A DNA stretch of 23,899 bases from a virus. The stretch's first letter is position 1. Every line of letters begins with the position of its first letter. The translations under genes and the position numbers were made by a program. This document shows, piece after piece, positions 1,624-18,085 of the stretch. Below the pieces are notes generated by a model. The model was not told the origin of the DNA. It saw nothing but the letters and a program-made list of their open reading frames with translations, and made no database searches. The stretch covers positions 1-23,899 of the IMG/VR virus record IMGVR_UViG_3300043313_000399, one strand, 5' to 3'.

Positions 1624-2048
1624 GCTTCTCATTGTGGAACGACACACCGGGCCTGACGCAGCGCCTCCAGCAGTTGCTGGAGGCGCCGGAGAACTATCCG
1701 TTCAGCACGATCGCCCCGATGCTGTCGAAAGAGTTCAACATCCGCCTCACCAAGAACGCCTGTATCGGGAAAAGCAGGAGGCTCAAGATGCCGCCACGGG
1801 AAGCACGACCGCCCAAGATCCGGCAATACGTCTACAAGCCGCGGGTCAAGACCAAGCCGCGCGAGCCGGAGCATGCCGGCCTGATTACGATCTACCAGCT
1901 GCGCGACTTTGTCGACTGCAAGTGGCCGATCGGCGAGTTGCCGGACCTCCTGTACTGCGGCCAGCCACAGGAGGAGGGCCAGGTCTACTGCACCAAGCAT
2001 TGTGATCTCGCCTATCATCCGGGGCGGAAGCACTTACAGCCTGCCTAG
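1620..2048 (+). CDS. gcrA: GcrA-family cell cycle regulator homologue
   Basis: In Caulobacter and relatives, GcrA binds RNA polymerase sigma70 holoenzyme and activates promoters carrying methylated GANTC sites (made by CcrM). This 142-aa protein keeps the family layout. Residues about 10-56 form a helical DNA-binding domain ending in TKNACIGKSRRLKM, which matches the family's TRNAVIGKxHRLGL. A basic linker rich in Pro, Lys and Arg spans 57-85. The C-terminal domain (99-134) has DCKWPIG, LYCGQ and VYCTKHCDLAYHP, with Cys100, 113, 124, 128 and His127, 133. It is slightly shorter than typical cellular GcrA, with a longer insertion before the DNA-recognition segment. It overlaps the upstream gene by 4 bp. 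The final codons merge into the pentamer array. Phage GcrA could retarget host transcription or time phage genes to the cell cycle. Confidence 0.85.
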   Translation: MSFSLWNDTPGLTQRLQQLLEAPENYPFSTIAPMLSKEFNIRLTKNACIGKSRRLKMPPREARPPKIRQYVYKPRVKTKPREPEHAGLITIYQLRDFVDCKWPIGELPDLLYCGQPQEEGQVYCTKHCDLAYHPGRKHLQPA

Positions 2049-2761
2049 CCATTCCCGTCCCTGCCATGCCTCGCCCTACCCGGCCACGCCCCGCCGCGCC
2101 AGTCCGTGCCTCGCCTGCCGCGCCAGGCCCAACCGCGCCTCGTCACGCCTCCCCGCGCCTCGCCTGCCAGGCCGTACCGCGCCAAACCAAATCCAGCCTC
2201 GCGCCGCCTGCCCCGCCAGACCGCGCCTCACCCGGCCGCGCCGAACCCGGCCATGCCTGCCATGCCGCGCCAAGCCCGACCCCACCGGGCCGAACCCGGC
2301 CTCACCCGACCATGCCTGCCTTGCCCGGCCAGGCCGCGCCGCGCGCCGCCACACCTAACCACTCCTTGCCTGCCACGCCGTGCCAGACCACGCCTCGCCA
2401 ATCCAGTCAACGCCAAGCCGGTCCCCGCCTGCCGTGCCCCGCCTGTCCTGACCAGTCCGCGCCAGTCTGAGCCATTCCACGCCACGCCTGCCTCGCCACG
2501 CCCGACCCTGCCGGGCCTATCCCTGTGCCGCCAAGCCTGCCGCGCCCAGCCGGACCTCACCGCGCCAAACCGTGCATGTCCATGCCCCGCCTGCCATTCC
2601 AAGCCAGTCCTCCTCATGCCCGGCCTCACCTTGTCTGCCTTACCCCGCCCAGCCTAGCCCCGCCCGACCTCTCCAAGCCACACCTAGCCCAACCTCGCCT
2701 GCCGTGCCGGACCACGTCAGCCCATGACCGGCCCAGCCCGACCTCGCCTTGCCTGCCGTGC
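2049..2761 (-). repeat. Pentamer array 1: about 140 degenerate GG[C/T]NN units, non-coding
   Basis: For some 700 bp, CC dinucleotides (GG on the minus strand) recur every 5 bases. Examples are CC at 2050, 2055, 2060, 2065 and so on to 2115, and again 2221 to 2280. An occasional 4- or 6-base step shifts the register. The two or three intervening bases vary freely, so hardly any long exact repeat exists. The 12-mer GCCTGCCGTGCC nevertheless appears at 2427, 2697 and 2751. The periodicity begins inside the last codons of the GcrA gene (about 2041) and ends exactly at the stop codon of the leftward gene 2762-3262. On the minus strand the array is therefore the 3' untranslated extension of that operon. 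Frames across it stay open on both strands only because the composition lacks stops. I treat it as non-coding. GG every 5 bases fits two-tetrad G-quadruplex potential. Confidence 0.85.
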
Positions 2762-3262
2762 CTACTCTTCGTCCTCGTCATCCCCGCCGACGTCAGCGAG
2801 AAGATCAGCCACACGCTCGAAGTGAGCCTTGTCGGCTCCAACGTGCAACAGACAACTACCATATCGTTTTAGCCAGGACTGCATCGCAGTCGACGCCTCG
2901 CCGCACAGGTAGGCGACGTGTTCTGGATTGCTCGGGTCCATCACGATATAGCCGCCGCCGTCATTTCGGCCGTCCATCGGAGAGACGATCATAGGCGCTT
3001 GCGTCTCGATTACGCGAATAGTCCCGCCTCGACCAACATGCTCGACTTTGAATTTGACGACCAGGTCGCGGGCGAAAATTCTCGCCTGCCATAATCGATA
3101 TTCGTGAGCGGCGGCGTCATCACTCCAGTTAAACCACGCGAAAGCCGGATGAGCCTCGCCTCTGCGTTTGACCTCAGCCAGAAACGCGGCGGGGTCGTAA
3201 GCCCCGCCGTGTCGCTTGGCAAAGTCGGCGATGATTTGTTGTCGCAGACCTTTGTCGAACAT
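2762..3262 (-). CDS. Conserved-looking phage protein of unknown function (166 aa)
   Basis: Second gene of a leftward pair. Its ATG overlaps the upstream stop by one base (TAATG), so the two are translationally coupled. The N-terminal half contains FAKRHGGAYDPAAFLAEVKRRGEAHPAFAWFNWSDDAAAHEYRLWQARIFARDLVVKF, a helical, aromatic-rich segment resembling a class of uncharacterised proteins from alphaproteobacterial phages. The middle is beta-rich, and the C-terminus is acidic (VGGDDEDEE). No catalytic motif or membrane segment. The stop codon is immediately followed, in the sense direction, by pentamer array 1. Family memory is approximate and function unknown. Confidence 0.8.
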   Translation of the reverse strand: MFDKGLRQQIIADFAKRHGGAYDPAAFLAEVKRRGEAHPAFAWFNWSDDAAAHEYRLWQARIFARDLVVKFKVEHVGRGGTIRVIETQAPMIVSPMDGRNDGGGYIVMDPSNPEHVAYLCGEASTAMQSWLKRYGSCLLHVGADKAHFERVADLLADVGGDDEDEE

Positions 3263-4017
3263 TATGCAGCCCTCCGCCGCACTTCACCGTGGAAAAATGC
3301 CATCAGGTCTTCAGTGTCGCGATCGGCATAGACCGGCTGCTTCAGCGCGGCGAGTTGTACCTTGCGACCGTGCTTGGCCACCAGTTCATCCCACGCCTTG
3401 TCTTCCTCGCCCTCACCGAGCACTCTGAAACTTCCAAATGACCCTTTCCCTTTCTCTTGTCGGAAATCTCCCACGCCGATCAGCACACCGGCATTGCACA
3501 GCAGGTTGACAACCGAGGATGCCGACAACTGCGGGATGATGTAGCGTATCTCAAGTTCAGCGCCCCAGATCGGCAGGTAGCAGCGCGTCCTGACGTCTGG
3601 CGTTCGATTGATGTCGGCGGATCTTACGACATCCATCCGCAGCTGCGGCGTGCCGTAGAGTGGCACGAACGAACCCGGCATAAACAGCAGACGTTGCGCC
3701 GAGGTCTTGGTCAGGCCGGGGGTTTCCAGGGCCGCGGTGGACATCGCCGCCTTTACAGCAATCACGTTCAACCCCAGCGCCGTGGGGCCATCAGAGAGAA
3801 TTTCGGCGCTGTCGCGAAATTCCTGCTCCGGCGAGTGCTTGATGTTGGCACGGTCGGCCTTGCCTTTTTTTTGGCCGCCGACCAGCAACTGCTGCTTGGC
3901 TTTTGATGCCATCCGGTTCTGGAACAGCGGCGTAGTTCCGATAATGCGCAACTTAATGCTGGCCTGCCGCAGCGGCTGAATGCTGATCTCGATCTGGTCG
4001 TCTTTCTTGCTAGCCAT
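3262..4017 (-). CDS. Unknown phage protein with RAMP-like glycine-rich loop (251 aa)
   Basis: Lead gene of the leftward pair. ATG at 4017-4015 with AGGAG 6 nt upstream, both lying within a 10-bp inverted repeat. Residues about 20-42 are IKLRIIGTTPLFQNRMASKAKQQ, a beta strand followed by the TPLFQNRM motif. Near residues 178-200 the sequence reads GVLIGVGDFRQEKGKGSFGSFRVL. The pattern GxGxxRxxKGxGxFG resembles the glycine-rich loop that closes ferredoxin-like folds in RAMP/Cas7-type RNA-binding proteins. That likeness is a motif-level impression, not a family assignment. The protein has no membrane segment. With gene 2762-3262 it forms an operon facing away from the replication genes, and its messenger would carry the pentamer array at its 3' end. 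Confidence 0.8.
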   Translation of the reverse strand: MASKKDDQIEISIQPLRQASIKLRIIGTTPLFQNRMASKAKQQLLVGGQKKGKADRANIKHSPEQEFRDSAEILSDGPTALGLNVIAVKAAMSTAALETPGLTKTSAQRLLFMPGSFVPLYGTPQLRMDVVRSADINRTPDVRTRCYLPIWGAELEIRYIIPQLSASSVVNLLCNAGVLIGVGDFRQEKGKGSFGSFRVLGEGEEDKAWDELVAKHGRKVQLAALKQPVYADRDTEDLMAFFHGEVRRRAA

Positions 4018-4243: not shown

Positions 4244-4593
4244 AGCGCGGCGACGAGGAACACAAACTGCAGGTGATGGTGATCGAGCTGCTCGAGATCA
4301 TGGGCAGGAAGGGGGCGTTCTACTGCTTCTCGATCCCCAACGCCGGCATCCGCACTTTGCGGATGGGCGCCCGCATGAAGCGCGAGGGGCTGCGTTCCGG
4401 CCTCGCCGATCTCTGCTTCATGCTGCCCGGCGGGCGTGTCGCCTGGCTGGAAATGAAAACCAAAACCGGCCGGCAGTCGGTCGAGCAGAAGAATTTCCAG
4501 CAGATCTGCCTCGCGCTAGGACATCCATACGCCATTGCTCGATCATTCGAGGAGGCAGAGAAAATTCTGAAATTATGGGGAGTATTGAAGTGA
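4240..4593 (+). CDS. VRR-NUC domain nuclease (PD-(D/E)XK superfamily)
   Basis: A 117-aa stand-alone VRR-NUC protein, the usual size for phage versions. N-terminal Glu6/Glu7 in the first helix (DEEHKLQVMVIELL) is followed by FYCFSIPNAGIRT, GARMKREGLRSGLADLCFMLPGGRVAWLEMKTKTGRQSVEQKNFQQICLALGHPYAIARSFEEA. Catalytic Asp57, Glu71 and Lys73 (LADL...LEMKT) and the Q...F..LGH tail are all present. Members cut branched or structured DNA, and phage forms resolve replication or recombination intermediates. It overlaps the RHH gene by 4 bp and the HNH gene by 4 bp. It belongs with the downstream exonuclease and SSB-like protein in a recombination module. Confidence 0.9.
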   Translation: MKRGDEEHKLQVMVIELLEIMGRKGAFYCFSIPNAGIRTLRMGARMKREGLRSGLADLCFMLPGGRVAWLEMKTKTGRQSVEQKNFQQICLALGHPYAIARSFEEAEKILKLWGVLK

Positions 4594-5075
4594 TTGGAGA
4601 AACTTACGGTCGATACATAGTCATTGATAAGGCGCCGCCATCAAAATACATCAAGTATCTATGCCGGTGTTCTTGCGGGACGGAGAAGATCGTTACCAAA
4701 GACAATCTTCAGCGCGGGCACAGCAAAAGTTGTGGCTGTCTGCGCAATGAACTCAACCGCGTTCGTCACATAACCCATGGGATGCGCCGTAAGCCTGTTT
4801 ATAAATCATGGGGTGGCATGATCCAGCGATGCACTAACCCCAAAAACCCGGACTGGGATTATTATGGAGGTCGCGGCGTTTCTGTCTGTGATCGATGGCT
4901 CACTTTTGAAAACTTCCTTGCTGACATGGGCGAGCCTGCCAATGGGCTGACCATTGATAGAATTAATCCTTATGGAAACTACGAACCGGAGAATTGCAGA
5001 TGGGCTACGCGCAGGCAACAACGGGTAAATCAGCGGAAAAATTTGGATACGAAAGGCACTCCCCTTCGTCCTTAA
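4590..5075 (+). CDS. HNH homing-type endonuclease with N-terminal zinc ribbon
   Basis: 161 aa from GTG 4590, which overlaps the upstream stop (GTGA) and has GGGGAG 7 nt upstream. An ATG at 4575 is an alternative. The N-terminus GETYGRYIVID leads into a Cys4 zinc ribbon (Cys25/27/29 and Cys48/50: LCRCSCG...SCGC). A linker HGMRRKPVYKSWGGMIQRC follows, with the YYGGRGVSVCDRW...F..FLADMG block, and then the nuclease core LTIDRINPYGNYEPENCRWAT (residues 120-140). This is a widespread phage intron-less homing endonuclease architecture. Local sequence is visibly richer in A and T than the flanking genes, suggesting recent transfer. Its last 76 bases overlap the beginning of the exonuclease frame, so it appears to have landed at that gene's 5' end. 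Confidence 0.85.
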   Translation: MIGETYGRYIVIDKAPPSKYIKYLCRCSCGTEKIVTKDNLQRGHSKSCGCLRNELNRVRHITHGMRRKPVYKSWGGMIQRCTNPKNPDWDYYGGRGVSVCDRWLTFENFLADMGEPANGLTIDRINPYGNYEPENCRWATRRQQRVNQRKNLDTKGTPLRP

Positions 5076-5767
5076 ATTTATTCGCAGCCTCACCTTCGAT
5101 GTGGGTTTTGGAGAAAGTCCTCGGCCTCAAGCAGCCGGTCGGCGCCGTGGCGCACCGCGGCGTGGCGGTCGAGGACGGCGTCGCCCACGGCCTCGGCAAC
5201 CCGGATGCCGACGACAAGGACAGCATTAAGATTGCGCTGGCCAAATACGACCTGCTGACCGCGATGTCGGGCGACCACCGCCGCGAAAAGTATCGCGACG
5301 ACATCCCCGACATGGTGAGCCAGGCGCTCGACGAGCTGCGGCCCTACGGCATCCCTACCGACACGCAAGGGTTCATCACCTGGCATCCCGAGGGATTGCG
5401 ACTGCCGATCGTCGGTTACTTTGATTTCAAATGGGAAAACCAGGGCATCATCGTTGATTTGAAAACGACTGACCGTATGCCGAACGAGATCAAAGCAGGT
5501 CACGCGAGACAAGTGAGTTTGTATTCCGGGGATAACCACGAGGGCCGGTTGACTTATTGCACTCCGCGAAAATGCCACACGCTGCAGCTGGAGAACATCC
5601 GCGAGCATCGACAAGCACTGCATAACATCGCGAAGAAGGTTGAAAACTTTCTGGCGCTGAGTGAAGATCCGGCGTTCTTCACAACTGTCGTTGCGCCTGA
5701 TTTGGATAGTTTTTATTGGGGTAACCCAGTTGCACGTCAACTTGCGTTCGAGCATTTCGGCGTGTGA
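5000..5767 (+). CDS. RecB/Cas4-like PD-(D/E)XK exonuclease
   Basis: 255 aa from ATG 5000. A TTG at 4994 is less likely. The fold-specific residues are visible: HSPSSLNLF near 20-28, the HRGVAVEDG helix (His52, Glu58), VGYFDFKW with Asp142, and IVDLKTTDRMP with Asp153-x-Lys155. QVSLYS then gives the conserved Gln after the catalytic centre. Phage proteins of this type are 5'-3' or processive exonucleases that make single-stranded tails for annealing. The first ~20 residues are read from the same DNA as the HNH C-terminus in another frame and look unconserved, so the ancestral start may have been displaced by that insertion. The SSB-like protein downstream fits the role. Pentamer array 2 starts 6 bp after its stop. 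Confidence 0.85.
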   Translation: MGYAQATTGKSAEKFGYERHSPSSLNLFAASPSMWVLEKVLGLKQPVGAVAHRGVAVEDGVAHGLGNPDADDKDSIKIALAKYDLLTAMSGDHRREKYRDDIPDMVSQALDELRPYGIPTDTQGFITWHPEGLRLPIVGYFDFKWENQGIIVDLKTTDRMPNEIKAGHARQVSLYSGDNHEGRLTYCTPRKCHTLQLENIREHRQALHNIAKKVENFLALSEDPAFFTTVVAPDLDSFYWGNPVARQLAFEHFGV

Positions 5768-5773
5768 GACTTT

Positions 5774-5855
5774 GGCACGGCAGGCCCGGTCACGCTAGGC
5801 AAGGTGAGGTTCGGCAGGGTTCGGCGGGGCGCGGCGTGGTATGGCCCGGCAGGCG
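5774..5855 (+). repeat. Pentamer array 2: about 16 GG[C/T]NN units
   Basis: GG recurs at strict 5-base spacing from 5783 through 5849 (one unit reads CG at 5793), with a 4-base step at each end. The start GGCACGGCAGGC (5774-5785) is identical, on the sense strand, to the start of array 1 read from its own upstream gene. The G-rich strand is again the sense strand of the gene that has just ended. Between the arrays only the phase and GG[C/T] are kept while the other bases vary. No reading frame of interest is present. Confidence 0.8.
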
Positions 5856-5936
5856 ACACAAGAATTTATCCGATACCGGGGTTAATCCGGTGTGGCACCG
5901 CGGCTGGCCTGATAGCCGCATTAGGAGAATGTGAAA
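5856..5936 (+). promoter_or_regulatory. Leader of the SSB-like gene with two short hairpins
   Basis: After the pentamer array, ACCGG (5875-5879) can pair with CCGGT (5887-5891), and GCGGCT (5900-5905) pairs perfectly with AGCCGC (5914-5919) over an 8-nt loop. The second hairpin ends just before the AGGAGA ribosome site (5923-5928). No T run follows either, so termination is unlikely. They may influence translation or messenger stability. I see no clear promoter here. Confidence 0.4.
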
Positions 5937-6641
5937 ATGTCTCGTTTTGGTTTCTCGACCGAGCCGTCCGCTGGCGGCGACTTCACTCCTATCGTCAAGT
6001 ATGACGCCCGCGCCGGTCGGGTGTTTCGCATTGATCGCGAGCAGACCGGCGACGGGTTTGCCTCCAACCCGGTCGACATCACCGCAACCTTCAAGGCCGT
6101 TGTCGATTTTGAAAACGTCGAAACCGGGTGGATGGATTTCCCGCCGGGTTCGGCGCCATCGTTCGCGCTGGTGCAACTCTCCTCGCTCGACAAGGGCGGC
6201 TCGCTGCCCGATCGGCCCAGCGCCAAGCACAAGAGCGGAGTGCGTTTTCTCTTGAAGCTGAACAAGGCCTGCGGCGGCGACAAGCCGGTGCGGGAGTTGG
6301 CTGGCACCTCCAAGGCGTTCCTGCAGGGCATCGAGGAGGTCTATACCGAGTACGAGAAGCAGAAGGCACAATACCCCGGCCAATTGCCGGTGATCGAACT
6401 GGCGACGACCACACCGGTCAAGTCTGGCTCCGGAGCGCAGCAGTCGACCAATTATCGACCTGTGTTCAAAATATCCGGCTGGGCGCAGCGCCCGGCAGAC
6501 CTAGTCTACCTGCGGCCCTCGACGGCGCCGGTGGAGCCGCTGAAGCCCACCCCGCCTGCGACCGGCGCGCAGACTGTCCCGCCGCCGAACCAGTATCGGC
6601 AGGCCCCTGCGGCGCAAATGGCGGATGACGACTTCGGCTAA
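5937..6641 (+). CDS. Putative single-stranded DNA-binding protein (phage SSB-like, 234 aa)
   Basis: ATG 5937 is preferred over GTG 5931 because AGGAGA sits 8 nt before it. The protein opens with a beta-rich region (DFTPIVKYDARAGRVFRIDREQ, DITATFKAVVDFENVETGWMDFPPG) followed by FLLKLNKACGG and ELAGTSKAFLQGIEEVYTEYEKQ. The last ~50 residues are Pro, Gln and Thr rich and end in the acidic tip MADDDFG, like the tips through which SSB proteins recruit partners. A C-terminal tail plus OB-like start is the typical organisation, but no family signature is decisive. Position after the exonuclease and before the primase-helicase supports the call. A different annealing or DNA-binding role is possible. 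Confidence 0.6.
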   Translation: MSRFGFSTEPSAGGDFTPIVKYDARAGRVFRIDREQTGDGFASNPVDITATFKAVVDFENVETGWMDFPPGSAPSFALVQLSSLDKGGSLPDRPSAKHKSGVRFLLKLNKACGGDKPVRELAGTSKAFLQGIEEVYTEYEKQKAQYPGQLPVIELATTTPVKSGSGAQQSTNYRPVFKISGWAQRPADLVYLRPSTAPVEPLKPTPPATGAQTVPPPNQYRQAPAAQMADDDFG

Positions 6642-9542: not shown

Positions 9543-9758
9543 ATGCTGAAGGACGATATTGAGAAGTTGAAGGCCGCCATGGACGAGGCCTTGAGAGCTA
9601 ATCTGCGGGTGGGAGCGGCACTGACACCTACCACACGCCGCCTGGGGGTCGAATTGGCGCGTGAGGTGCTGGCTGACTTTGCCATCATCCTCGAAAACGG
9701 CGACGGCGTTAACAGGGTTCGTAATGATTACGCGATGATTGTCGGAGAGGGGTTCTGA
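9543..9758 (+). CDS. Small hypothetical protein (71 aa)
   Basis: ATG 9543 is chosen because AGGAGG lies 5 nt upstream. An ATG at 9519 is in frame but has no ribosome site. The protein is mainly helical: MLKDDIEKLKAAMDEALRAN, then RRLGVELAREVLADFAIIL, then a short tail. It lacks Cys and membrane segments. Its stop overlaps the next ATG (TGATG), indicating coupling. It follows the iteron region directly. I do not recognise it. Confidence 0.7.
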   Translation: MLKDDIEKLKAAMDEALRANLRVGAALTPTTRRLGVELAREVLADFAIILENGDGVNRVRNDYAMIVGEGF

Positions 9759-14794: not shown

Positions 14795-16566
14795 TGCCGA
14801 TGGCAGTAATCAGCACCACGAAGGGGCTGGCGGTTACCAGTGCGCCAAACGGCCTGCCGGTGGTTGTCGCGACCAATGGCTACGGCGTCGGCGTTGTGCC
14901 TGTGGCGTCGGGCGGATTGCCGGTGTTTGACACGTCGGGCACGCTGTTCGGGCCGGCGGTGATACCGGCCAACACGGGCTTGCCTGTTATCACCGGATCT
15001 ACGGTAGTAGGTCAGACGCTGGTCACTACGGTGGGGACGTGGTCGGGGACGATGGCTGCCTACACGTTTCAGTGGAAGCGTGGCGGTGTGGACATCAGCG
15101 GCGCTACGTCTAACACCTACCTGTTGGTTACTGCGGACTTGGGGGTCAATGTCACGGTGACGGTGACGGCGACAAACACGGCGGGCAGCGCCAGCGCCAC
15201 GTCGGCAGCGGTGGGGCCTGTGACGGCGACACTTGATGCGCCGACACTGACCTGGGAAAGCACGCCGGAGATCAACCCGCCGTTGCTGGTGCTTGGCATT
15301 CCCGACAATACGCTGGCAGGTGATCACGGGCGCATCGAGATCAGCAGTGACGGTGGCAGCACCTGGGCACTGTATATTGATGTCACGATTGTCAATCCCG
15401 ACGCAGGCTCGATGAGCGGGACTGCGGCGGCACTGCCGACCGGGGCGTATACGTTGCGGGCGCGGATGGAGCGCGGCGCGGCTTTTTCGGCGTGGAGTAC
15501 CTCGATCAGCATCAACGTCATTCTCGACACGACGGCGCCAACAATTGTGTCGTTCAACCCACCCGATAATACCACCGGCGTTTCACGGTCTACCGATTTT
15601 ATCCTGACGTTCAGCGAGCCGATCGCACTTGGCGCATCCGGGACGGTCACGCTGAAAAAGACATCTGACAACTCGACTATCGAAACGTGGGACATCGCCA
15701 CCGAAGCCGGGTCCGGTCCGGGTCAAATTAAGATCAACGGTCTGACAGGCCTTCAGATGCGGCTAACCAGTTCGCTGGCCCCATCAACGGAATATTACAT
15801 CGTGGCGACGGCAGGTGTTGTCAAAGACGTGGGAAACAACCCATCGAGCGCGATTTCGTCCACCACACAATGGTCGTTCACAACCACCAGCAGCACGGGT
15901 TGGACATCACCGCTTGATGCTTCTACGCCTGCAGTGTTCTGGGTTGATGCGAGCAATACTTCCTCGGTTATCAGAGCCGGGACTGCTGTTTCCGCATGGA
16001 ACGACCTTACCACGGGCGGGCATAATTTAACGTCAAGAGGAGGATCAGCCTTCTATACCGCCAGTGCCATTAACGGACTGCCGGGTGTTGATACCAATGC
16101 CATGAGCGGGCTTGCATCAACCGCGTTTACCGTGGCACAGCCCCTAATGGTGGTTGTGGTTTGGAAACAGAGCGGAGCGGGTCCAGCCACACAGGCATTT
16201 TTGTTCGATGGTGATCTTGCCGGGGCGGCCGCGAACCGGCTCATCATCATAAACAAGTGGACTGGCGGCAATTACAATACGTTTGGCAACAACTTGGTAG
16301 ATCAGGGTGTCGCCGTTGCAGCGGGTACGGCCTATCACACGCGCGCAATATTTAACGGGGCATCATCTTCGTCCAAGTTGAACGCGTCCGTTCTAACCGG
16401 GACTAACCCCGGTCCCGGATCAATACAAAATGGTATCCAACTGAGTTCTTCTTCCACGTTCAAGTCAAACGCGATTTATTGCGAAATCTACGTCATTCCA
16501 AATCCGACTGCCGCCGACATCACCAATTCTGACGCCTACGTCCTCGCGAAGTGGGGTCTGGCATGA
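14794..16566 (+). CDS. Multi-domain Ig-like/ConA-like phage surface protein (590 aa)
   Basis: Begins with GLAV/GLPV repeats every 10-20 residues (1-65). A bacterial Ig-like unit follows at about 64-145 (VVGQTLVTTVGTWSG...YTFQWKRGGVDISGATSNTY...DLGVNVTVTVTATNTAGSASATS). A beta-sandwich region spans 146-245 and a Big_5/SbsA-type Ig unit spans 247-365 (TTAPTIVSFNPPDNTTGVSRSTDFILTFSEPI...). The C-terminus, 378-590, is concanavalin-like lectin (PAVFWVDASNTSSVIRAGTAVSAWNDLTTGGHNLTS). Such proteins decorate capsids or tails and bind carbohydrate. It is probably virion-displayed and helps adhesion. The DNA is visibly richer in T than the portal gene, hinting at separate origin. No signal peptide is seen. 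Confidence 0.8.
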   Translation: MPMAVISTTKGLAVTSAPNGLPVVVATNGYGVGVVPVASGGLPVFDTSGTLFGPAVIPANTGLPVITGSTVVGQTLVTTVGTWSGTMAAYTFQWKRGGVDISGATSNTYLLVTADLGVNVTVTVTATNTAGSASATSAAVGPVTATLDAPTLTWESTPEINPPLLVLGIPDNTLAGDHGRIEISSDGGSTWALYIDVTIVNPDAGSMSGTAAALPTGAYTLRARMERGAAFSAWSTSISINVILDTTAPTIVSFNPPDNTTGVSRSTDFILTFSEPIALGASGTVTLKKTSDNSTIETWDIATEAGSGPGQIKINGLTGLQMRLTSSLAPSTEYYIVATAGVVKDVGNNPSSAISSTTQWSFTTTSSTGWTSPLDASTPAVFWVDASNTSSVIRAGTAVSAWNDLTTGGHNLTSRGGSAFYTASAINGLPGVDTNAMSGLASTAFTVAQPLMVVVVWKQSGAGPATQAFLFDGDLAGAAANRLIIINKWTGGNYNTFGNNLVDQGVAVAAGTAYHTRAIFNGASSSSKLNASVLTGTNPGPGSIQNGIQLSSSSTFKSNAIYCEIYVIPNPTAADITNSDAYVLAKWGLA

Positions 16567-16871
16567 TTACCGACGATAACTTTGACGAGAAGGTGCTTCA
16601 GTCAAAGAAGCTGTCGATCGTCATGTTCTGGCAAGCTGGCTGCGCGTTCTGCAAAGGCCTGTTGCAAGTGCTGATACAGGTGGCACGTGTGTTGCCTGTC
16701 GTGAATTTTGTCGTGATCGATGCCGACACCTGTCCGGTCATCAGGCGTCGTTACGACATTGACGCCTATCCGGCACTGCTCGCGTTCCGCAATGGCGAGG
16801 TCGTCGGGCGCAGAATGGGTGCAGCGTCGATTGGCAGCGTCACCGGCTGGATCAAGGAAAGGATGACATAA
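16563..16871 (+). CDS. Thioredoxin-like protein with CAFC active site
   Basis: 102 aa from ATG 16563, overlapping the previous stop (ATGA). It has the complete thioredoxin fold order: helix, then strand IVMFWQAGCAFCK with redox Cys27 and Cys30, then helix LLQVLIQVARVL, strand VNFVVIDADT, RRRYDIDAYPALLAFRNGEVVGRR with the cis-Pro (Pro70), and a C-terminal helix. The usual WCGPC is here GCAFC, and an extra Cys57 is present. It would reduce or exchange disulfides in the cytosol or help a folding partner. Its place between an adhesin and a Cys-rich DUF1996 protein, rather than in the replication module, suggests assistance to virion-protein folding. That partnership is inference. Confidence 0.88.
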   Translation: MITDDNFDEKVLQSKKLSIVMFWQAGCAFCKGLLQVLIQVARVLPVVNFVVIDADTCPVIRRRYDIDAYPALLAFRNGEVVGRRMGAASIGSVTGWIKERMT

Positions 16872-18085
16872 TGCCGATCACGGGCCTGTCCGACATTCCG
16901 AGCAATTTCACTATCTCGTCCAACATTTCCATTCAGGCTGGCGCGACGGCGGAGTGCCTTCCTAACACTGGCGAAGGTAAGCTTCGCTTTCGTTGCAACA
17001 CCAGCCATGTATCTTACGACGACCCGATCCTTTATCCAGGCCAGCCGGGTGCTGCGCATTTGCATCATTTTTTCGGAAATTCGGGAGCCAGATACGACTC
17101 GACATATGCGAGCCTGCGTGCGGGGACCAGTCTGGCCGGCACGCCGAATACGACTGGCTCCGACAGCACATGCAGCGGCAAGGGGTTGAACCGAACCGGC
17201 TACTGGTTTCCGGCGATGATCAAGCCAGCCGGTTTTGGCTTTCCGGTGCCGAAAGTGGTTCAACCGGAGTTTATTGAACTCTACTACAACATGGAACCGT
17301 GGATGCTGGACGACTACACGCCCGCCACTGGCGCGTATTCGCACAAGACGAATGGAATGCGACCCTTCCCGAACGGGCTACAGATGATCTGGGGCTGGGA
17401 ACACACCATGCCGATGCGGCCTGGACCGGCACTCTGGGGCGTTCCGACGCACCCGGCTTACATAGCTGCTGGCGGGGCTTTTCAAAACACGTTGCAAGGC
17501 GTTCTGGATTACGCACCCGGCATTCTCACGCCGCCGTATCATTCCTTGCAAGCGCGTTTTGACAGTCCGACGTGCTGGGACGGCGACAACTTGCGGGCGG
17601 CAACAACGACGCCGTCGATTGCGGGAGGCGTAAACCAGCCGAGCGGGTACGGGCCCGGGCGCAGCCATATAGCCCGTCATTTCCAGGATGGCAACGGCCG
17701 CCTGATCTGTCCGGCCACGCATTCGTATCGAATACCGCAAGTAACATTCATCTGTGCGTGGCCTGCCTCTGACCCGAACGACTGGAAGAACTGGTATCTG
17801 TCGGTTGATCGGCATAACGGCATGAACATGGCGGGCGGGACCGGATTTCATACGGACTGGTACGGCGCGTGGGACAGCGACATTCAGACCATGTGGGAAA
17901 CCAACCACATGCAGATCGGGTTCAGTTCAGCCACCGCGAACGAGAAAACCTCGAACAGTGGCAACCTCTGTCAGGAAGATAAGACCATGGTGAACAGCCA
18001 CCTGGTACTTAACCCGGCGGGGACGTATCTGGACATTCCTGCGCCGCCGGGCAAAAAACGGCTGAGGCTTAACCTGTCAGTCTAG
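16871..18085 (+). CDS. DUF1996 domain protein, Cys-rich (404 aa)
   Basis: Starts one base into the thioredoxin stop (TAATG), with AAAGGA 7 nt upstream. Hallmarks of DUF1996 are all there: FRCNTSHVSYDDPILYPGQPGAAHLHHFFGN (HLHH at 63-66), TCSGKGLNRTGYWFPAMI, SPTCWDGDNL, HIARHFQDGNGRLICPATHSYRIPQVTFICAW, and FHTDWYGAWDSD. Seven Cys (29, 42, 101, 235, 280, 295, 367) could form three disulfides. DUF1996 proteins are best known as secreted proteins of fungi and bacteria, with unknown biochemistry. This copy lacks a signal peptide, so release by lysis or incorporation into the particle is likely. The invariant His cluster suggests metal binding or catalysis, not proven. Confidence 0.88.
   Translation: MPITGLSDIPSNFTISSNISIQAGATAECLPNTGEGKLRFRCNTSHVSYDDPILYPGQPGAAHLHHFFGNSGARYDSTYASLRAGTSLAGTPNTTGSDSTCSGKGLNRTGYWFPAMIKPAGFGFPVPKVVQPEFIELYYNMEPWMLDDYTPATGAYSHKTNGMRPFPNGLQMIWGWEHTMPMRPGPALWGVPTHPAYIAAGGAFQNTLQGVLDYAPGILTPPYHSLQARFDSPTCWDGDNLRAATTTPSIAGGVNQPSGYGPGRSHIARHFQDGNGRLICPATHSYRIPQVTFICAWPASDPNDWKNWYLSVDRHNGMNMAGGTGFHTDWYGAWDSDIQTMWETNHMQIGFSSATANEKTSNSGNLCQEDKTMVNSHLVLNPAGTYLDIPAPPGKKRLRLNLSV

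Follow-up and report, generated by a model that had tools for sequence, protein, structure and literature searches.

A detached pentamer array beside a phage exonuclease gene is very probably a VIPR guide RNA locus, likely repressing the exonuclease of rival phages

What is a short run of five-base units, nearly all opening with GG, doing directly behind an exonuclease gene in a virus, and do its variable bases carry a message? The question is raised by one locus in IMG/VR record IMGVR_UViG_3300043313_000399, of which positions 1 to 23,899, the whole stretch analysed, are referred to here as the window. Below, we set out why this locus, array 2, is very probably a guide RNA (vrRNA) locus of a phage VIPR system, with the exonuclease of rival phages as the likely object of repression. 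The features immediately concerned are as follows.

4994–5767, plus strand: PD-(D/E)XK exonuclease-like gene (Pfam PF12705, E 6.3e-6), just upstream of array 2
5774–5856, plus strand: array 2, 15 GGYNN pentamers and two GGCA anchors, six bases past the exonuclease stop codon (5765–5767)
5779–5782, plus strand: GGCA anchor that borders guide A2.1 on its 5' side and precedes GGC
5783–5847, plus strand: guide A2.1, 13 pentamers between two GGCA anchors, with 26 specifying bases, antisense to the exonuclease 3' end
5848–5851, plus strand: GGCA anchor, the 3' border of guide A2.1
5931–6641, plus strand: SSB-like gene, 3' of array 2 and adjoining the exonuclease gene in relatives; the name is that of a first-pass annotation of this DNA and has no profile basis

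The first-pass annotation had reported a pentamer array in constant five-base phase that starts 6 bp past the exonuclease stop codon, and both the array and its start are borne out. The phase is not continuous, since four-base GGCA units interrupt it near each end, the order being GGCAC, GGCA, thirteen pentamers, GGCA and GGCGA. Array 2 thus has 17 units, namely two four-base units, both GGCA, and 15 pentamers, 14 of which begin with GG; every pentamer has C (10 of 15) or T (5 of 15) as its third base. A chance low-complexity stretch, which the annotation had considered unlikely, is a poor description of a segmentation score of 32.7, given that 200 dinucleotide shuffles of the 500 bases around it reach at most 8.8 and 25 such shuffles of the whole window at most 9.0. 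The annotation was also right that this array and a longer one elsewhere in the window, array 1, are the same kind of element, both being built of GGYNN units and GGCA anchors. As to the further arrays for which it had proposed a search, the segmentation scan of the whole window finds no third array above threshold; each of the two is preceded by a gene on its own strand, the GGYNN strand being the coding strand of the gene immediately upstream in both cases. Tandem repeat scanning and segmentation found nothing but degenerate pentamers in the two arrays, with no near-identical direct repeats and unique spacers of the CRISPR type, and no Rfam family reached its gathering threshold in the window.

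Arrays of this kind have been described in a 2026 bioRxiv preprint (PMC13142463), the sole paper on VIPR or vrRNA found by term search. VIPR systems are carried by phages and have three parts: the RAMP protein Vipr, the accessory gene vap and guide RNAs built of GGY/NN pentamers, of which only the NN pairs read DNA, with one base skipped per pair (PMC13142463). A vrRNA consists of 9–16 GGY/NN repeats, the skipped base lies mostly at the wobble position and the targets are in competing phages; besides the type II system of SUSP1, six further types are described, type II vrRNAs have a conserved structured 3' tail, and VIPR binds double-stranded DNA and represses from either strand (PMC13142463). 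The window contains counterparts of each component, encoded on the strand opposite to array 2.

3262–4017, minus strand: vipr, a predicted RAMP-fold protein of 251 aa with a glycine-rich loop GVGDFRQEKGKGSFG
2762–3262, minus strand: vap candidate, a conserved accessory gene between vipr and array 1
2037–2762, minus strand: array 1, 13 GGCA-separated guides of 8–14 pentamers each, beginning at the vap stop codon
2542–2591, minus strand: guide A1.4, with an exact 20/20 match in a phage DNA methyltransferase gene (L233)
2434–2488, minus strand: guide A1.6, with a 20/22 match in L236, in a phage gene lying upstream of a primase-helicase-like one

For the vipr open reading frame, 80 relatives were kept from IMG/VR, and the residues of the glycine-rich loop are invariant in all 28 aligned homologues. 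A profile of these 28 matched SUSP1 Vipr (36pp_D) among the PDB sequences with an E of 1.8e-4, over only 48 profile positions; the single window sequence gave an E of 0.077 against the same protein. The AF2 model of Vipr (pLDDT 85) is predicted to have the Csm3/Cas7 RAMP fold: all 50 Foldseek matches listed come from CRISPR effectors, the majority being Csm3/Cas7-type chains (best E 8.5e-5), and the model gave a VIA Z of 9.7 over 138 residues at 3.3 A. The neighbouring frame at 2762–3262 is a vap candidate because a homologue is present in 70 of the 80 vipr loci; its model (pLDDT 90) had no Foldseek match below E 0.78, and its best structural likeness, a weak one, is to PadR-like winged helices (VIA Z 5.5 at most). 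Neither protein is matched by Pfam or PADLOC.

Array 1 has a segmentation score of 250.5 and 148 units, including 14 GGCA anchors; here too the five-base phase is interrupted at regular intervals, and GGCA is always the interrupting unit. With guide lengths of 8–14 repeats, 12 of the 14 guides in the window fall within the published range of 9–16 and two have 8. There is no structured tail between the array 1 guides, and the 3' flank of array 2, which is common to the window and to the syntenic relative L134, has no structure beyond that of shuffles. Open frames of up to 183 aa run within 2037–2762 (for example 2106–2657, plus strand); these arise from the repeat itself and do not merit annotation as genes.

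The relative L134, with 76–91% DNA identity in the main blocks, allows the parts of a pentamer to be compared by descent. Eight of the 13 array 1 guides have a counterpart there with NN identity of 0.90–1.0, and the other five reach 0.60 at most. In the eight orthologous guides the third base has changed at 14 of 83 positions, NN at 7 of 166 and GG at 5 of 166, and the difference between third base and NN is significant (Fisher p 0.0013); counterparts were picked at NN identity of at least 0.75, which favours NN, and no pair lies between 0.60 and 0.90. The NN bases vary between guides yet are conserved by descent, as expected if they carry the message.

The association of arrays with Vipr holds in both directions. 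When loci were fetched by the Vipr protein alone, an array was present in 66 of 80, and when they were fetched by the array pattern alone, Vipr was detected by profile in 63 of the 120 matches listed; in every one of these 66 and 63 linked loci, Vipr has an array on its own strand no more than 2 kb away. The generic pattern used (GG every five bases, ten times) occurs in at least 120 IMG/VR stretches, which agrees with the earlier idea of an element maintained in genomes; the alternative half of that idea, an element that spreads for its own sake, was wrong: the variable bases of the arrays are the information. Among the 120 matches listed, 108 are true arrays, the rest being G-runs, other repeats and arrays below the score used, and the third base across the IMG/VR arrays listed is C in 4298 cases, T in 1412, A in 355 and G in 47. 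Over the 147 loci with Vipr, 187 of 192 arrays lie on the Vipr strand, the flanks analysed being about 4 kb at the median, so that distant arrays may be missed; the five exceptions are in the window, in L134 and L221 (one contig), in L056 and in L019. Two arrays are of divergent build: that at 5837–6211 of L018 is divided by GGAC-TTTAG every 12 or so pentamers, and that at 3081–3641 of L017 (reverse strand) has a recurring insert of about 60 bases, which might be the preprint's ribozyme-interspersed type (PMC13142463).

Homologues of vipr are also encoded by 27 Mycobacterium and five Gordonia phage records, and in all three phage records opened (UmaThurman, ODay and Brocalys) a GGCA-divided array adjoins the homologue. 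In Gordonia phage UmaThurman (L237, NC_031249.1) the array occupies 3613–3936 beside the vipr homologue gp39, and annotated gene 40 (3625–3948), which lies almost wholly inside it, probably does not encode a protein. Bacterial genomes with a close Vipr homologue include Microvirga, Bradyrhizobium and Aureimonas (seven loci), from which we would guess that the host is probably alphaproteobacterial. Further homologues are on the plasmid records NZ_CP136687.1, NZ_CP040759.1 and NZ_LR026982.1 (Sulfitobacter, Paracoccus and Rhodoplanes).

Read by the one-base-skip code, guide A2.1 is the antisense of GGn ATn ACn GCn CCn GAn CTn GAn TCn TTn TAn TGn GGn, codons that spell G[IM]TAP[DE]L[DE]S[FL]YWG, in which Y and W are chosen where the alternative would be stop codons or C. 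This peptide is that of an exonuclease near its 3' end, where the proteins read TVVAPDLDSFYWG in the window, GITAPDLDSFYWG in L231 and GIVAPDLESFYWG in L232.

5684–5721, plus strand: the window's own exonuclease site homologous to the guide target, matching at 18/26, the best relatives matching at 24/26

Across homologous sites the guide matches 24 of 26 bases in L231 and L232, 22 in L223 and L224, 21 in L222, 20 in L221 and L225/L226, and 18 in L227–L230 and the window itself. The sole mismatched codon in L231 is a serine AGT in place of TCn, and L232 has valine for threonine. At the L231 site the best match is 24/26 with one base skipped, as against 19, 18 and 19 with a skip of 0, 2 or 3; this site is the best match of A2.1 over 4.68 million positions, on which one shuffle of the guide reached 19. 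A blind exact scan of IMG/VR with 20 A2.1 bases returned a single match, in L232, which was the exonuclease homologue at the same site. Out of 420 guides tested, A2.1 exceeds its shuffled control by more than any other, and in a scan of the window and L134 just two guides, A2.1 and A2a of L134, outscored every one of 60 shuffles, which the 13 array 1 guides of the window failed to do. In all four assigned guide/target pairs the skipped base lies at the codon wobble position. The best targets are exonuclease genes of related phage contigs with no Vipr in the flanks analysed, and genes in phage replication regions; the phages that bear them presumably compete with this one.

The slot that holds array 2 is variable among these relatives. 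Of 12 loci with an exonuclease homologue (query beginning at 5093, the open reading frame being 4994–5767), only L221, from the same contig as L134, has an array; ten exonuclease-homologue loci have neither Vipr nor an array. In L222 and L224 the slot is empty, the exonuclease stop being followed by a short spacer and then by the next-gene leader that is also found after array 2. The first-pass annotation had tied its reading to the array being conserved wherever relatives keep the exonuclease and SSB-like genes; 11 of the 12 exonuclease loci lack one, which formally counts against that reading, but we take it to mean that VIPR is an accessory weapon, and it is in the relatives lacking an array that target sites for the guide occur. 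L134 retains the slot, starting with GGCACGGCAGGC after a T-run and ending with GGCAGGCGACACAAGAATTTATCC, both as in the window, and fills it with two guides, A2a and A2b, that are quite different from A2.1. A2a matches the exonucleases of the window, L222 and L223 at 16/18 bases and that of L134 itself at 14/18, and A2b matches no exonuclease. L222, L223 and L134 bear one IMG sample number.

Named phages offer one weak match to the exonuclease (25% identity) and no blastn match to 5684–5935. A match of the exonuclease to Cas4 (PADLOC, E 0.02) was disregarded. The upstream end of its frame is overlapped by a presumably HNH-like open reading frame (RINPYGNYEPENCRWATRRQQ; 4568–5075, plus strand), most of which is missing from L134, where the alignment jumps from 4586 to 5048. 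Farther away, 16551–18085 (plus strand) encodes Thioredoxin (PF00085, E 2.9e-15) and then a DUF1996 protein (E 9.1e-20), a pair flanked by a Big_5 protein and an LPD23 polyvalent protein.

Since the guide lies within the exonuclease operon, it might serve to tune the phage's own exonuclease gene and not to attack rivals, and the own gene, at 18/26, still scores above all 200 pair shuffles of the guide within that gene. We consider self-tuning very improbable: the own allele is the lowest scoring of six close homologues for the exonuclease guides of both phages, the L134 slot carries different guides, and the window's own site is mismatched at five of thirteen codons, through three amino-acid changes and two alternative leucine/serine codons.

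It is also very improbable that the guide acts as an antisense RNA on the exonuclease mRNA and not on DNA, although A2.1 and L134 A2a are indeed both antisense to that mRNA. Binding of double-stranded DNA and repression from either strand have been shown for VIPR (PMC13142463). The array 1 guides point the same way. The A1.4 target encodes GIHTFAEPCA of a DNA methyltransferase (phrog_799, E 8.9e-30) in L233 and that of A1.6 encodes VVISLALQHG upstream of the primase-helicase-like gene in L236, where the eleventh pair of A1.6 is a mismatch; both are in frame, with the skip at the wobble position for A1.4. Both of these guides correspond to the sense strand of their targets, whose mRNAs they would be unable to pair with; set against the antisense orientation of the exonuclease guides, this fits DNA and not mRNA as the target. 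Least credible is a 3'-UTR element acting in cis, such as a G-quadruplex, RNA stabiliser or terminator, whose periodic GG would matter and whose NN would be filler. GG every five bases could give two-tier G-quadruplexes and both arrays lie directly past stop codons on the coding strand, but NN has changed about as rarely as GG and the third base more often, the predicted fold of the RNA of 5768–5935 is no better than that of shuffles (z +1.38), the occurrence of arrays follows that of a RAMP protein, and filler would not spell an exonuclease gene.

No perfect 26/26 exonuclease target for A2.1 was found, and a set of 397 genomes of the order, sampled evenly from a larger group, contained no site for A2.1 at three or fewer mismatches or for A1.4 at one or none. 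Scans of IMG/VR with four of the 14 window guides gave one match each for A2.1, A1.4 and A1.6 and no exact match for A1.1, and a control scan with the A1.6 pairs in reversed order gave none. With about 0.1 chance matches expected per 20-base pattern, on the assumption that IMG/VR holds 5e10 bases, the A1.4 and A1.6 matches are suggestive and that of A2.1 is not chance. When 420 of 481 guides are pooled and compared with the loci analysed at two or fewer mismatches, 48 guides find a match with a skip of 1 as against 42, 32 and 32 with skips of 0, 2 and 3 and 33 for shuffled guides, so the excess at skip 1 is small.

Targeting of adjacent genes was considered as a general rule and rejected: of 539 guides compared with their own loci, nine outscored each of 100 shuffles, against an expectation of about 5.3. 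A2.1 is not among the nine because shuffles reach 18/26 across the whole 23.9 kb. The strongest of them, the guide at 9584–9648 of L161, matches the SSB-like gene of its own contig at 21/26, and was set aside since the skipped base lies off the wobble position.

Taken as a VIPR guide locus, array 2 would work as follows. Transcription of the exonuclease operon would yield the guide, a detached single unit inserted between the exonuclease and SSB-like genes, and Vipr, by homology, would coat the transcript, gripping the GGY of every pentamer and exposing its NN to DNA, so that the NN pairs jointly read the target with one base skipped per pair, as in the published mechanism. The resulting complex would then most likely bind the exonuclease gene of a rival near its conserved 3' end and block expression, as published for SUSP1, during co-infection or against a prophage. 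Skipping the wobble base would blind the guide to most synonymous changes, and the own allele would escape through its three amino-acid changes and the alternative leucine and serine codons at two positions. More tentatively, and with somewhat more doubt than confidence, we suggest that array 2 is an RNA-guided allele-exclusion module, in which the guide shares an operon with a resistant exonuclease allele, so that guide and immunity are inherited together, foreign alleles are repressed, and relatives swap whole guides and aim them reciprocally. As there is no general trend towards self-adjacent targets, this wider reading rests on the one slot in two phages.

Several known systems bear comparison. 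Class 1 CRISPR effectors (Csm3/Cas7) share the fold predicted for Vipr and a RAMP-coated guide with periodic unpaired bases, a property of CRISPR guides stated in PMC13142463. They differ in that the window has no direct-repeat/spacer array and its guide is noncontiguous; among the five window open reading frames tested there is no cas gene, bar the exonuclease as a low-scoring Cas4. In the marker exclusion of T-even phages, a homing endonuclease gene beside a resistant allele disfavours the rival's allele of the neighbouring gene. The likeness is a functional analogy only, a weapon linked to a resistant allele; here recognition would be by an RNA-guided RAMP protein, and no nuclease is seen.

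The closest relative is VIPR itself, with which the window shares a Vipr of predicted RAMP fold with its glycine loop, a vap gene, GGY/NN vrRNAs, the one-base skip at the wobble position, carriage by a phage and targets in other phages; the kind of system is already published (PMC13142463). The window differs in a Vipr of 251 aa as against 202 aa in 36pp, in a head-to-tail order of guides with nothing but GGCA tetramers between them, which may be what the preprint calls 'staggered arrays' (fig. S18, PMC13142463), and in a second, detached array that lies on the opposite strand, within the operon of the targeted gene. The main text of PMC13142463 has neither a guide set apart from vipr and next to the resistant allele of the gene it targets, nor two relatives whose guides aim at each other's version of one gene; its supplement may describe such arrays. 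To that work the window adds an independent confirmation of the VIPR code, from sequence only, with decoded targets in phages of probably alphaproteobacteria, in which a guide names the adjacent gene and a blind scan of a collection lands on the same gene. It further suggests how guides may be deployed, beside a resistant allele and with whole modules swapped between relatives, an idea made testable by the vipr homologues and arrays of three cultured phages with laboratory hosts, UmaThurman, ODay and Brocalys.
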